Part shown: piece after piece, positions 3,497 through 11,227 of the stretch
Numbering within the stretch: position 1 is the first letter of the stretch
Layout of the letters: each line of letters starts with the position of its first letter
From: an uncultured Bacteroidales bacterium
Lineage (GTDB): Bacteria; Bacteroidota; Bacteroidia; Bacteroidales; JAUNSR01
Reading direction: 5' to 3'
Length of the DNA stretch: 38,455 bases
NCBI GenBank assembly: GCA_947074145.1
Contig: CAMTOJ010000032.1
Span: 1-38,455 of the forward strand
Program-made: the position numbers and the translations under genes
The notes under the pieces: generated by a model
What the model was told of the DNA's origin: nothing
Database searches by the model: none
Seen by the model: only the letters and a program-made list of their open reading frames with translations

Positions 3497-3772
3497 GTGG
3501 AAAATAAAAAGTTCATATCATTGCTACAGAAAAGAAGTGGATTAGACAAAAAAGTCATAAATTCAATCTTGTTATCAATGAATAAAGTAATTACAGAACA
3601 GTGCATAAATCTAAATTGTGTAGTTTTAGAGGGACTTGGACAATTTATTCCTAAAAAAAGAAAAGAGTTTACCCATTACGATGCAGCAACAAAGGAAACC
3701 TTGTTGTACCCACCTAAAATATCGGTAAAGTTTTCTGTTGACAAGAAAATAATTTCAAAAATTAATACCTAA
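3497..3772 (+). CDS. Small HU-family DNA-binding protein
   Basis: The 91-residue product matches the HU/IHF fold in length and pattern: two N-terminal helices (KKFISLLQKRSGLDKKVI) and a beta region with LEGLGQF, equivalent to the conserved 'GFGxF' turn of HU. It has few of the basic arm residues of canonical HU, so it may be a diverged or structural paralogue. Translation appears to begin at GTG 3497: the first in-frame ATG is at codon 28, inside the domain. It lies 27 bases after trmN6 and ends 6 bases before the larger HU-like gene, so the three are probably co-transcribed. Its N-terminal layout resembles that of the next gene, suggesting tandem duplication. Confidence 0.8.
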   Translation: MENKKFISLLQKRSGLDKKVINSILLSMNKVITEQCINLNCVVLEGLGQFIPKKRKEFTHYDAATKETLLYPPKISVKFSVDKKIISKINT

Positions 3773-3778
3773 GAGTCA

Positions 3779-5269
3779 ATGAACAGATTAATTACAGAGG
3801 AAGAATTAATTTCTTTAATTGCCCAAAAAAACAATATTGACAAAGAAGATGTCAAATCTCTTTTAACATCAATGACCTCAATTATAGAGGAGTCTTTATT
3901 AGAGGGTGAAAATGTAAAAATTGAGGGATTAGGTGAGTTTAAAATCGTCTCAACACAAGCGGGTGCCAAGAAACTTGTTGTTTTCCAAACAGATCCTACA
4001 TTAAAAAAGGGTATCAATGCTCCTTTTGAACAATTTGCACCTATTATAATAGAAACCAACAATACTTCAAATACCGAAAGAAAGGAAGAGATAAACAATT
4101 CCGATAAAATCATTATTCCTAAGACAGAGACCGAATATAAAGAGGAAACAGAACCTGTTTCTAATGAAAAAGATGATGATTCATTTAAAATAAATGAGAA
4201 GGATAATGTTTTGTCTAATAAAGAAAATAACAATCCCATTAATCAAGAGATTGAAACATCTGAAAATGATATAATTAATGACTCTAAAATTGTAGATGAT
4301 CAGATTAATAAAGATAGTGATTCCAAAGAAATGGAAACAGATTCTGCTACAACCCAGAATATGATTAATGATATGACTTCACAAAAAGACTTATCTACTG
4401 ATAATAAAATCAACGAACAAAAAAGCGAAGACCCGGACAATATATTATCTGTGGATCAGCCCGAAGATTCGGAAGATGAAAAACTACTTGAATCAGAATA
4501 TATTAATTATGATAAAAATCTCAATAAATCTTCATTGACAATCGCTCTTATTCTCATCCTTATAGCAGTTATTTGTGGCATTATATATCTATCGGTAAGA
4601 GTTGATAGAGATAAAGAAAAGTCTAAATCTCCTGAGCAAATTTTTCAGGTTGGAGCAAATGTCAAACAATCAGAAAAGAGGAACGAAAACACACTTTCTT
4701 TAACCGAGTCAAAAAAAGAAACAAAACCGGAGGCAACACAAAAAGCTAAAGAATCACAACCGGTAGTTAAAGAGGAAAAGAAACAACCAACTGAAACAAA
4801 TAAAACTGTTTCTCAGCCAAAGAAAGAGATTATTAAAAAAGACGATGCAATAGTAAAAGAGAAAAATAAACAGCCTAAAGAAATAAAGGAAACAGTTTCG
4901 CAACCAAAGAAAGAAAATATAGAAAAAATCAAAATTGAAGATAAACCGGTTTCATCAAAAACCAATAATAAAGAGAATTACCAATCATATTTAATCAGTA
5001 GTGAAACAACAACTCCTATCCCATCATCTCAGATAAAAATGGAACCTGGTGGGCGTCTTACTCTTTTAGCATTAAAGTATTATGGAAATAAGATTTTCTG
5101 GGTATATATATTCGAGGCTAATAAGGAAAAATATCCTAATCCTGAATTTATTCCTGCCGGAGCACTTTTAACAATCCCTCAGCCTTCTGAATATGGAATA
5201 AATAATAATGATCAAAAGTCATTATCTAAGGCTGCAGAACTTTCAGCAAAGATACTTAAGCAACAATAA
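3779..5269 (+). CDS. HU-domain / transmembrane / LysM-like protein
   Basis: This 496-residue protein joins modules from different compartments. Residues 1-95 form an HU-like domain (EGLGEFKI turn at 49-56). Residues 96-250 are acidic, low-complexity and rich in Asn, Asp, Glu and Lys. Residues 252-273 form one hydrophobic membrane segment. Residues 280-400 are a Lys/Glu/Pro/Gln-rich linker with an imperfect tandem repeat (about 331-351 and 360-381, each containing TVSQPKKE). Residues 420-468 resemble LysM (PGGRLTLLALKYYGNKIFWVYI...IPAGALLTIP). The inferred topology is N-terminus in the cytoplasm and LysM in the periplasm, so the protein could tether DNA, or bind a partner, near peptidoglycan. 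The domain calls are by pattern; the function is inference. It overlaps the trmD promoter region at its 3' end. Confidence 0.75.
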   Translation: MNRLITEEELISLIAQKNNIDKEDVKSLLTSMTSIIEESLLEGENVKIEGLGEFKIVSTQAGAKKLVVFQTDPTLKKGINAPFEQFAPIIIETNNTSNTERKEEINNSDKIIIPKTETEYKEETEPVSNEKDDDSFKINEKDNVLSNKENNNPINQEIETSENDIINDSKIVDDQINKDSDSKEMETDSATTQNMINDMTSQKDLSTDNKINEQKSEDPDNILSVDQPEDSEDEKLLESEYINYDKNLNKSSLTIALILILIAVICGIIYLSVRVDRDKEKSKSPEQIFQVGANVKQSEKRNENTLSLTESKKETKPEATQKAKESQPVVKEEKKQPTETNKTVSQPKKEIIKKDDAIVKEKNKQPKEIKETVSQPKKENIEKIKIEDKPVSSKTNNKENYQSYLISSETTTPIPSSQIKMEPGGRLTLLALKYYGNKIFWVYIFEANKEKYPNPEFIPAGALLTIPQPSEYGINNNDQKSLSKAAELSAKILKQQ

Positions 5270-7159: not shown

Positions 7160-8077
7160 TTAATTATTTATCTTCAATGCTCCGATTATCTCATTTACAT
7201 CCTTATAACCATGTCTGTCGAGATACTCATTTATACCATCAACAACTTTTACCGTTATTTGAGGGTCAATAAAATTAGCAGTTCCTAATTGAACAGCAGT
7301 AGCTCCACATAAAAGAAACTCAATTGCATCCGTAGCATTCATAATACCTCCTAATCCTACGATAGGAATTTTTACGGCATTATAAACTTGCCACACCATC
7401 CTTAGAGCTATCGGCTTAACAGCAGCACCCGACATACCCCCTGTTATTGTAGAAAGAAGAGGTTTTTGAGTTTCTGCATTAACCGCCATTCCCAAAAGAG
7501 TATTTATTAGAGAAACAGAATCTGCGCCTGCAAATTCAGCTGCTTTTGCTATTGATGCAATATCTGAGACATTAGGAGAAAGTTTCACAATCAAAGTTTT
7601 ATTATAAGCTTTTCTTACAGCTGAAACTACAGCCTCAGCACTCTGACAACTTGTACCAAAAGCCATACCTCCCTCTTTAACATTAGGACATGAAATATTT
7701 AACTCTATTGCCGGTATCTTATCAAGCTCATTGCATTTTTCAGCCGTAGCAACATAATCTTCTATTGTTGAACCTGAAACATTTATTATAACATTAGAGT
7801 CATAACCTTTCAACTGTGGATAAATATTATCGATAAAATAATCAATTCCTTTATTTTGCAATCCCACTGCATTTAACATTCCCATCGGAACCTCAGCCAT
7901 TCTGGGATAAGGATTTCCTTCTCTATGGTGCAAAGTAGTTCCTTTTACAATAAAACCACCCAGTCTATTAAGATCAATAAAGTCGGCGAATTCAACTCCA
8001 TATCCAAAAGTTCCGGAAGCGGTCATAACGGGATTTTTGAACTCTAAATTCCCAATATTTATATTTAGTTTTGCCAT
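7160..8077 (-). CDS. pyrD: Dihydroorotate dehydrogenase class 1B, catalytic subunit
   Basis: PyrDB oxidises dihydroorotate to orotate in pyrimidine synthesis, using FMN and, through PyrK, NAD+. The 305-residue protein opens with [19 protein letters not shown] and carries [11 protein letters not shown], whose cysteine (C130) is the class 1 catalytic base. Class 2 quinone-linked enzymes use serine instead. The C-terminal FMN phosphate region [20 protein letters not shown] is intact. The gene overlaps the 3' end of pyrK by 13 bases, so translation is probably coupled and the two subunits are made together. The assignment as NAD+-dependent 1B depends on the adjoining pyrK. Confidence 0.96.
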
Positions 8078-8847
8078 AATAATTTTTTTAGATTAAAAAC
8101 AGGACCTTCCGAACAAACACATTTATGCCCCTCTTTTGTATTCTCTACACAACAAAGACACACTCCGAAACCACATGCCATTTTGTTTTCAAGAGAAACT
8201 TCACATTCGATATTTTTCTGATCAGCATATTTTGAAATAGCCATCATCATAGGTTTGGGTCCGCAGGTATATATAAAATCAAACTCTTCTTTGTTTAAAA
8301 TAGAATGATCCACTACGTAACCCTTTTCTCCATGAGAACCGTCTTCCGTGGTAGTATAAAGATCTCCATATTTAGCAAATATATCAAGCTGAAGTAAAGC
8401 TTCTTTATCGCGTGCACCCAATAAGAATGATACATTTATAGAGTTCTGTTTTAAAACAGCACCCAAATATAACATAGGAGCAGTACCAACACCACCTCCA
8501 ACAAGAAGAACTTTTGAACCTGGCTTCAAGTCCGTTGTAAATTTATTACCTAATGGAAGTATGACATTGAGAAGATCCCCTTCTATAAGATCACCTAATT
8601 TTCTTGTGCCATCGCCGATCATTTGTATAAGAAACCAAACCTGATTTTTTTCTAAATCGACAAAGTTAATTGAGATTGGTCTTCTGAGAAAAGTATTAGG
8701 ACTGTTTTCCACTTTCAATTCAGCGAATTGGCCGGGTTGCATAATCGGCAATGGAGAGTCGTCGATTGTTGTCAATTTAAGCAATACATAATTACTGCCC
8801 GGATATTCTTTCGATACGACTCTTAAATTAAGAATAGTTTTTTTCAT
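8065..8847 (-). CDS. pyrK: Dihydroorotate dehydrogenase electron-transfer subunit
   Basis: PyrK passes electrons from PyrDB to NAD+ through FAD and a [2Fe-2S] cluster. The 260-residue product has the ferredoxin-reductase FAD motif FLRRPISI, an NAD-binding stretch [18 protein letters not shown], and C-terminal cluster cysteines spaced C-x4-C-x2-C-x9-C (CGFGVCLCC...C). This fits the PyrK family. It precedes pyrD in the transcript. A perfect -7 element lies about 55 bases upstream of the ATG. Confidence 0.95.
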
Positions 8848-8955: not shown

Positions 8956-9411
8956 TTATTTTCTTACATGTCTTTCGGGCAAGAAATTTTCAAACGTATT
9001 ATCGGAATAAAAAACAACAATTTTTGTAACACTTTTAATTGAAGGTTTACCAAAAGATCTTTTATGTATCTTTTCTTCTTTGTCATTGTTTTCCTCTTCT
9101 TGCTGGGATAAAATCTGACACTCTTCATTTTCCTGATCAATCAAAGAAAAGGAGATATCATCTTCAATCTCTTCATCTTCTATTTTTGTGAGCTGTTGCT
9201 GATGCTTAAACATAGGCTCTTTACCAAAAAGAACCCAGTCAGTAGAAAGGTAGTCAAATCTTGTTATAATTTTTAGAAGGACATCCAAACTCGGATTATT
9301 ACGTCCACTTAGAATATGAGACATAATTGCTCTTTGAACACCTATGCTATCGGCAAAACGAGCTGACGTCATACCTTCCTGTTCCATTATTTGAATTATA
9401 CGATCTTTCAT
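8956..9411 (-). CDS. XRE-type helix-turn-helix transcriptional regulator
   Basis: The 151-residue product has an N-terminal Cro/C1-type helix-turn-helix (about residues 3-60: MEQEGMTSARFADSIGV, then MSHILSGRNNPSLDVLLKI). An acidic low-complexity linker (about 70-115) and a short C-terminal module ending KIVVFYSDNTFENFLPER follow. The ligand and targets are unknown. The frame extends upstream to 9576, but that extension is hydrophobic and unlike a repressor, so the ATG at 9411 is chosen. Upstream lies a 0.8 kb region packed with a repeated dyad. One copy at 9486-9497 contains the best -7 element for this gene, so autoregulation is the simplest reading. Confidence 0.85.
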   Translation of the reverse strand: MKDRIIQIMEQEGMTSARFADSIGVQRAIMSHILSGRNNPSLDVLLKIITRFDYLSTDWVLFGKEPMFKHQQQLTKIEDEEIEDDISFSLIDQENEECQILSQQEEENNDKEEKIHKRSFGKPSIKSVTKIVVFYSDNTFENFLPERHVRK

Positions 9412-10186
9412 ATTTTCTATTATAATGTTGAAATTAATAGAGTTTACATTTATATATTCAAAAATAAACATTTTTATCCTATGCAACAAATGTAAACTAC
9501 ACAACTTTATCAATGTATAAATATACATATGCAAAAATAGGGATACGAAAAAGAATAAAATACATTTGTAACACAAATGTATAACCTAACGATATTATTA
9601 CAAATGTAAACATGCGCACAATTAGAGCTTATTTAGCGAATTTTACATTTGTAATCATGTTATATCTACCCGCTCTTCCTTGTTACATAAAATTATATAT
9701 TCAACCCCTTTTAACCTTACACTATTACTTTATCATCTTAGCTTATATTATTGGATATCAATATGTATACACCCTGTCAACCCGAAACAGAATACAACAA
9801 TCAACAAATCTAACCACAATAAACAACCAGCATTAAACAATCAATTTACAATATTGTGCTATATGGCTGGTTATCTGTTTTATACATCACTTTAATGCCG
9901 TTATTCAAAGATGATATATTTGTAAACTACATTTGTATACACCTCTGATTAAAACTATAAATCCCATATTTTATCCACTATTTACATTTCTATATTATAA
10001 TAATAACATTTGTGCGATATATAATTTATATACATTTGTATATTGCCGGCTTTATATAATTTCATATCCATTTTGCAAACCTTGTTATTTATATACATTT
10101 TAAGCCACAGCATATCTGCTTAAGAGTTTACATTTGTATAATCCTTAATTAGTGTCCTATTATTGATAGAATATTTTTGATTATAT
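9412..10186. repeat. Cluster of TACATTTGTA-type dyad sites in a gene-free region
   Basis: The core ACATTTGT occurs nine times: + strand at 9562, 9645, 9929, 10006, 10032 and 10130; - strand at 9486-9493, 9573-9580 and 9600-9607. Looser copies start near 9443, 9915, 9981 and 10093. The consensus is about TTTACATTTGTATAA, a dyad TACA-TT-TGTA. Two copies face each other at 9560-9582 as a perfect 10-base inverted repeat with a 3-base spacer. Eight copies contain TACATTTG, which also matches the -7 consensus TAnnTTTG. No convincing gene is present here; the small open frames on the + strand lack coding character. Confidence 0.8.
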
Positions 10187-10207: not shown

Positions 10208-11227
10208 ATGGCTAAAAAAGAATCTCCCTCCTTTAAGGATATTATAAATGATATTTTAAATGGTAAAATCGCACCTATTTATTTCCTTATGGGTGAAGAA
10301 CCTTATTTTATCGATCTAATAACTGACACTTTGGAGAAGAATGTATTGACTGAAGAAGAGAAGGATTTCAATATGACCACTATTTATGGAGCTGATAGTG
10401 ATATAGCAACAGTTATAAATGCCTCTCGAAGATTTCCAATGCTTGCCGACAAACAACTTATTATTGTAAAAGAGGCTCAAATGTTGAGTGAATTAGATAA
10501 GCTTGAATTTTACACCAAATCCCCCTCTTTATCAACCGTATTGGTTATTAATTATAAGTACAAGAAATATGATACAAGAAAGAAGCTAATAAAGGATATC
10601 CAGGATAAAGGAATAGTATTTGAATCAAAAAAGATATACGAAGACAAGGTGCCTGATTTTATATTATCATATATAAAACCTAAGGGTTATTCTATTGATG
10701 GCAAAGCGGCTTTAATGTTAGCTAATTATATAGGTAATAATTTATCTCGTTTAACGGGAGAAATTGATAAACTCATAGTAAGATTAGGAGATAACAAGAA
10801 AATAACTTCAGATATTATAGAGGGTAATATTGGTATCAGTAAAGAGTATAATAATTTTGAATTACTTAAGGCTATAATAAACAAGGATCTTTATAAAGCA
10901 AATCTTATCTGTAGTTTTTTTGCAAAAGATCCTAAGAACAATCCGTTTGTTCTTACTCTATCTGTTCTTTTTAGTTACTTTTCAAACCTAATGCTTGCCT
11001 ATTATAGTAAAGATAAATCGGAAAACGGACTTGCACAGGAACTCAATCTGAGAAGCTCATATGCAGCAAGAGATTATCTTATCGGATTAAAGAATTATAG
11101 AGCTATTAAAACAATGGAGATTATCTCTTTACTCAGATCATATGACGCGAAATCAAAAGGATATGAAGCAAATAATATATCAGAAAATGAACTTCTCAGG
11201 GAACTAATATTTAAGATTACCCATTAA
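10208..11227 (+). CDS. holA: DNA polymerase III delta subunit
   Basis: The delta subunit opens the sliding clamp within the clamp-loader complex. The 339-residue protein shows the family N-terminus (APIYFLMGEEPYFIDLITDTLE), the FPMLADKQLIIVKEAQ segment, and the C-terminal helical region (KGYEANNISENELLRELIFKI). As is normal for delta, there is no Walker motif. Its level of conservation is low, as in this family generally. The ATG at 10208 is chosen over a TTG at 10187 that lies in the probable promoter. It is a single-gene unit ending in a strong terminator. Confidence 0.93.
   Translation: MAKKESPSFKDIINDILNGKIAPIYFLMGEEPYFIDLITDTLEKNVLTEEEKDFNMTTIYGADSDIATVINASRRFPMLADKQLIIVKEAQMLSELDKLEFYTKSPSLSTVLVINYKYKKYDTRKKLIKDIQDKGIVFESKKIYEDKVPDFILSYIKPKGYSIDGKAALMLANYIGNNLSRLTGEIDKLIVRLGDNKKITSDIIEGNIGISKEYNNFELLKAIINKDLYKANLICSFFAKDPKNNPFVLTLSVLFSYFSNLMLAYYSKDKSENGLAQELNLRSSYAARDYLIGLKNYRAIKTMEIISLLRSYDAKSKGYEANNISENELLRELIFKITH

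Follow-up and report, generated by a model that had tools for sequence, protein, structure and literature searches.

Phased dyad clusters and IHF-like elements recur upstream of an XRE-family regulator gene across Bacteroidales

The window, i.e. the whole 38,455-nucleotide stretch of DNA from an uncultured Bacteroidales bacterium that was analysed here, carries a small XRE-family regulator gene. Two dihydroorotate dehydrogenase genes follow it on the same strand, and a long intergenic region separates it from a divergent gene:

7160..8077, minus strand: pyrD, class 1B dihydroorotate dehydrogenase, a neighbour in 67 of 81 loci
8065..8847, minus strand: pyrK, electron-transfer subunit of dihydroorotate dehydrogenase; it directly follows the regulator gene and is a same-strand neighbour in 56 of 81 loci
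8956..9411, minus strand: XRE/HTH_3 regulator gene (151 aa), with HTH at residues 6-59, a low-confidence linker and a C-terminal beta-hairpin, KIVVFYSDNTFENFLPE
10211..11227, plus strand: holA (DNA polymerase III delta), divergent and separated from the regulator gene by the array (Pfam DNA_pol3_delta, 1.8e-14)

The regulator was assigned to the XRE/HTH_3 family by a Pfam match to HTH_3 (PF01381; 1.2e-7, 32.1 bits against a cut-off of 23). Alignment of 19 orthologues revealed conservation of the HTH and of a C-terminal motif, K-I-x-x-F-Y-S-D-N-T-F, with a variable linker, and the AlphaFold2 model (pLDDT 77.6), which is silent on oligomers, showed this motif as a short beta-hairpin. The nearest solved folds in Foldseek were Cro/C1-type domains, including P2 C, P22 c2, SinR and DdrO, with 434 also among the matches, and the closest viral families were the phage repressors PHROG 8, 3 and 4. 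Orthologues were present in 49 of 60 relatives sampled, almost exclusively from this order, and relatives of the protein are encoded on more than 580 stretches in the named genome collection. The open literature that we searched held no description of the regulator or its array.

A sequence-only reading of this DNA had reported nine exact copies of an 8-base core, in both orientations, in a gene-free stretch of 0.7 kb. All nine copies of ACATTTGT/ACAAATGT were found, in both orientations, within 699 bp (9442-10140), starting at 9486, 9562, 9573, 9600, 9645, 9929, 10006, 10032 and 10130. The claim that this is far more than chance would give was borne out, as 3000 dinucleotide shuffles of the region gave on average 0.13 copies of ACATTTGT and never more than 3, and the 38.5-kb window had 0 copies outside the array (window-wide shuffle mean 1.93, largest 5). 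A genome-wide count, which had been proposed as a check, located TACATTTGTA 46 times in the 3.7-Mb genome, with 6 of these in the array region. The region also appeared to be free of genes, as had been stated: it held no conserved gene, and its two ORFs of 71 and 74 aa, considered as hidden short genes, were rejected since they had no match in sibling genomes. A small RNA or riboswitch in the gap of the array was likewise rejected, as neither the window nor 13 other loci gave an Rfam match at gathering score, distant tRNAs excepted.

The sequence-only reading had also proposed a search for the array beside orthologues. An unbiased dyad scan, covering every 5-mer half-site and spacer, was carried out on about 105-110 orthologous upstream regions. 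TTACA-N2-TGTAA was by far the strongest dyad, with 143 occurrences; shuffles predicted 0.3, and control DNA from downstream gave 3.5. The symmetric matrix obtained by expectation-maximisation, (T)TTACA-WW-TGTAA(A), identified 711 sites in about 105 orthologous regions as compared to 43 in shuffles, and flanking DNA of these loci had 0.19 matrix sites per 1500 bp; a few of the approximately 105 loci represent one genome reached twice, and the result was unchanged by this. The dyad thus recurs upstream of orthologues throughout the order, at a density above that of ordinary DNA, so that lack of conservation and ordinary density, named beforehand as refuting outcomes, were not observed. Within its genus, the intergenic DNA of the window can hardly be aligned (77% over 60 bp at best). 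A strict tandem-pair pattern search, which was too stringent, retrieved 3 of 60 genomes.

The orthologue-built matrix gave 12 sites in the window, 7 near the HTH gene (38, 78, 117, 154, 165, 192 and 237 bp upstream of the ATG) and 5 near holA (508, 521, 576, 624 and 722 bp upstream), and a gap devoid of operator sites (9654-9914) separates the two clusters. The facing pair noticed earlier at 9560-9582 was confirmed as an exact match. These features, none of which is assigned to a strand, are:

9445..9653: proximal cluster of operators; 10-bp cores of its 7 dyads at 9445, 9485, 9524, 9561, 9572, 9599 and 9644
9560..9582: exact facing pair ATACATTTGT-AAC-ACAAATGTAT, two dyads 11 bp apart centre to centre
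9915..10138: distal cluster of operators; its 5 dyads at 9915, 9928, 9983, 10031 and 10129, with a weak copy at 10005

In orthologous loci the proximal cluster spans about -10 to -240 and the distal one about -330 to -720, counted from the ATG. Two clusters, each of at least 2 sites and separated by at least 120 bp, were recognised in 78 of 95 loci. The window has 7 proximal and 5 distal sites, as does each of the two sibling species with the best coverage. Centre-to-centre spacings peaked at 13, 23-24, 34-35, 46-47, 57-58, 68 and 79 bp, with a period of 11.3 bp (power 117, against a maximum of 9.8 among 200 jittered sets). The phase relation across the two clusters was weaker (11.1 vs 9.0).

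Motif discovery on the same DNA with the dyads masked returned an oriented 36-bp element, CTATAAATCAGTAATTTATAnnATTTATATAAAGTA (log-likelihood 704, as compared to about 31 for shuffled DNA), with 154 copies on the gene strand and 18 reversed, where 4.8 were expected. The element was present in the gap of 62 of the 95 loci, these having both clusters as well. It often occurs as a direct pair 115 or 116 bp apart and less often 105 or 106 bp apart, i.e. one helical turn less; from some loci the second element, or a clear distal cluster, is missing. The window has both copies:

9726..9761, minus strand: IHF-like 36-bp element, proximal copy (13.9 bits)
9842..9877, minus strand: IHF-like 36-bp element, distal copy (14.8 bits), a direct repeat 116 bp from the proximal copy

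The consensus for IHF binding in E. coli is WATCARNNNNTTR, and the core of the 36-bp element falls on it in a fixed register: 60% of the 154 elements were within one mismatch of WATCARNNNNTTR, as compared to 0.4% of shuffled cores. The two copies in the window have 2 and 3 mismatches of 9 to this consensus, yet score well with the family matrix, and in the sibling species at locus L002 the fit is exact. The element differs from IHF sites of E. coli in extra conserved A/T blocks on its 3' side and in allowing C at the third position. Its conserved 3' half (TTA..TAAAGT) lies outside the E. coli consensus and, therefore, another DNA-bending protein is possible. The genome has 3 matches to the HU/IHF family above cut-off. 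Tandem genes of this family lie in the window at 3497-3772 and 3779-5269 on the plus strand (91 aa, and 496 aa with the HU domain at the N-terminus), some 5 kb away from the array; they adjoin the locus in one sibling only, and the pair was rejected as a dedicated partner of the array because it is unconserved beyond that sibling.

Several orthologues from other orders of the class, which were outside the matrix training set, also had two clusters, often with a single element between them. Upstream of the XRE start at L216, L218, L223 and L224, from four genomes that belong to the class but not to the order, a conserved, divergent gene, by eye a putative zinc carboxypeptidase, starts near the distal cluster.

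The vegetative (sigma-ABfr) promoter of Bacteroidetes carries TAnnTTTG at -7 (PMC7366714), and TACATTTG fits this pattern. Among first operators less than 60 bp from the start codon, 61 had TT at the centre, with TACATTTG reading into the gene, and 6 had AA; among operators elsewhere the two orientations were more balanced and both were common. A TTG peak was seen across orthologues 23 bp upstream, where the -33 box is expected. The sigma-ABfr arrangement (TAnnTTTG at -7, TTTG near -33) was, therefore, evident across orthologues, but was not clear in the window itself, where the copy in -7 orientation is the second site (9485-9494) and not the one nearest the ATG:

9487..9494, minus strand: candidate -7 element of the XRE promoter, TACATTTG, lying within an operator and proposed from the orientation statistics of orthologues

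Operator and -7 box appear to be the same bases in most orthologues, which supports autorepression. The sequence-only reading was, therefore, well founded as regards the dyad array and its overlap with the -7 element, which in the window concerns the second site; it had overlooked that the sites form two clusters, that they are helically phased and that IHF-type elements lie between the clusters.

We consider it likely that the intergenic region is an operator-promoter complex of the XRE protein, in which phased clusters are folded by IHF/HU-type bends and the regulator represses itself. What the analysis shows is the motif, with its clusters, phasing, conservation and overlap with the promoter, and the second element with its IHF-like consensus; binding by the XRE protein, binding of IHF or HU at the 36-bp elements, the loop, repression and the physiological signal are all inferred. 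The joint conservation of dyad and gene strongly suggests that the protein recognises a palindromic operator beside its own coding sequence. Dimers of the XRE protein, with TTTACAWWTGTAAA as predicted target, would bind about twelve copies of (T)TTACA-WW-TGTAA(A). The two clusters of copies would share a single helical face, the nearer one covering the promoter of the regulator itself and the other about 330-720 bp from the ATG. Two IHF/HU-type bend sites between the clusters, 116 bp or about 11 turns apart, would fold the distal cluster back onto the proximal one into a compact, cooperative repression complex, through which the XRE regulator would control its own transcription. Where adjacent, pyrK-pyrD and the divergent gene may also be under its control. 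The recurrence of the arrangement beside the XRE gene in most of Bacteroidales suggests an old, hitherto undescribed switch that regulates itself, and not a product of chance.

XRE/Cro-C1 autoregulators usually act through few operators over a short promoter region. P2 C, P22 c2, SinR, DdrO and the C proteins of restriction-modification systems resemble the present regulator in HTH fold, short palindromic operators and autoregulation (as proposed here), but the array differs from theirs in its two phased clusters over 700 bp and its bend elements, and the protein in its conserved C-terminal beta-hairpin motif. The LexA-like SOS repressors of Bacteroidetes also have palindromic operators, with CTAA-N5-TTAG and GGA-N5-TCC as main motifs, and carry a C-terminal S24 peptidase domain; one paralogue binds TTAC-AAATT-GTAA (PMC8565304), with half-sites similar to those found here and one more base between them. 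In contrast, Pfam search found no S24 domain in the XRE protein, which ends in the modelled beta-hairpin.

Alternatively, the operators could act independently, with the array sharpening or buffering the level of XRE protein by titration, without a loop, and with the 36-bp elements bound by an unrelated factor such as an activator. Operator clusters alone can indeed yield cooperative autoregulation, and TTACANNTGTAA is enriched genome-wide in the genus (26 vs 4 in the control for the window's own genome; 29 vs 7 in G003), so the XRE protein may have other targets, which the array could buffer. However, most genomes of the order have no such enrichment, the phase relation spans both clusters, and oriented elements at a fixed spacing of 115/116 or 105/106 bp in most gaps fit an architecture better than titration. 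We, therefore, regard independent operators as unlikely. Outside the genus, TTACANNTGTAA was enriched genome-wide in G020, G051 and G057, and a wider XRE regulon may exist in particular lineages. A coherent regulon elsewhere in the window's own genome was considered and rejected, since many of its enriched sites are inside ORFs and they mark no coherent gene set. One locus (L201, G000:C20:47700-51700) has two strong dyads, at 2013 and 2034, 21 bp apart, between ORFs that by eye resemble bioF and bioA; this pair may be the site of another regulator with a similar half-site.

The operators of phage Mu are clustered around an IHF site, and the likeness to the present locus lies in operators in the early promoter region with an IHF site that modulates regulation. 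Joint regulation of Mu by its repressor and IHF is established (PMC3820752 with its reference 36; Krause and Higgins 1986, as cited in PMC3820752). The Mu-type layout, in which an IHF-type site separates two clusters of operators, is the one seen in the 62 loci mentioned above, but the array differs from Mu in its chromosomal XRE protein, its approximately 12 operators, the two bend sites often present at fixed spacing and its order-wide conservation. Moreover, the protein matched HTH_3 and general phage repressor PHROGs rather than Mu c, and no transposition genes were found by Pfam among the window genes checked. The locus could still descend from the immunity region of an ancient Mu/P2-like phage, as a remnant or in domesticated form, with the XRE repressor in continued control of its old operators; the PHROG families and the P2 C, P22 c2 and 434 folds listed above would suit such a descent, as would the Mu-like clustering around an IHF site. 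No phage genes were identified among the neighbours checked and orthologues adjoin pyrK-pyrD in most loci, so any capture from a phage would predate the order, and we find this origin improbable. It concerns where the region came from, and is compatible with the looped-operator mechanism.

Iteron-like phased repeats, IHF-like sites and AT-rich DNA are features of plasmid and Vibrio chromosome II origins, and the array shares them, with holA adjoining it in this genome; it could, accordingly, be read as a replication origin or a centromere-like partition site. This is highly improbable, since holA adjoins the XRE locus in only 20 of 81 loci, the upstream gene being variable, and no initiator or Par gene was seen. 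In G201, a single contig, sampled GC skew switches near 1.05 and 2.5 Mb whereas the gene lies mid-arm at 0.45 Mb, and in G281 the skew signal was weak, with the estimated origin elsewhere. No dnaA was found near the locus among comparable coordinates, which is of little help as contigs differ. That the repeats are merely dense sigma-ABfr promoters is scarcely credible: TACATTTG does fit TAnnTTTG (PMC7366714), but the two-fold symmetry reaches past the -7 box, any of TT, AA, AT and TA may stand at the centre, and a strong orientation bias exists only near the gene.

The proposed looped, self-repressing XRE complex may bear on pyrimidine synthesis through its neighbours. The array itself was ruled out as a part of pyrK-pyrD: where pyrD is on another contig (e.g. 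G019 and G045), the XRE gene retains the array next to it, and two pyrKD genomes without a detectable XRE gene had no operator sites upstream of pyrK. The array thus follows the XRE gene. Within the order, co-occurrence of XRE protein and class 1B PyrD was weak (28 of 49 vs 2 of 11; Fisher p = 0.04). Outside the order, at L215 and L221 (G221 and G254), a class 2 quinone-dependent PyrD lies about 920-970 bp downstream of the XRE start, where it is the next larger gene on the same strand. The dihydroorotate dehydrogenase neighbourhood, class 1B in Bacteroidales and class 2 in these two genomes, thus survives a change of enzyme class, and a link of the switch to pyrimidine synthesis is possible because such an enzyme follows the XRE gene outside the order as well. 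The frequent linkage suggests that the switch may sense or set pyrimidine or redox state.

On the wider reading our judgement is evenly divided: the locus may be an undescribed, anciently conserved switch of Bacteroidia, in which a small protein of the XRE family would assemble with two arrays of helix-phased operators and with one or two bend sites of IHF type into a higher-order nucleoprotein complex of the Mu kind, often linked to dihydroorotate dehydrogenase and sensing or setting pyrimidine or redox state. Few cellular, non-phage regulators are known to have clustered, phased operators together with architectural bend sites. The present XRE regulator occurs in the majority of genomes sampled from a major gut order, and its array is conserved in layout but not in sequence. 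The 36-bp element provides a candidate consensus for natural IHF/HU sites in Bacteroidota, and the locus allows a possible connection of pyrimidine synthesis with a DNA-looping switch to be tested.
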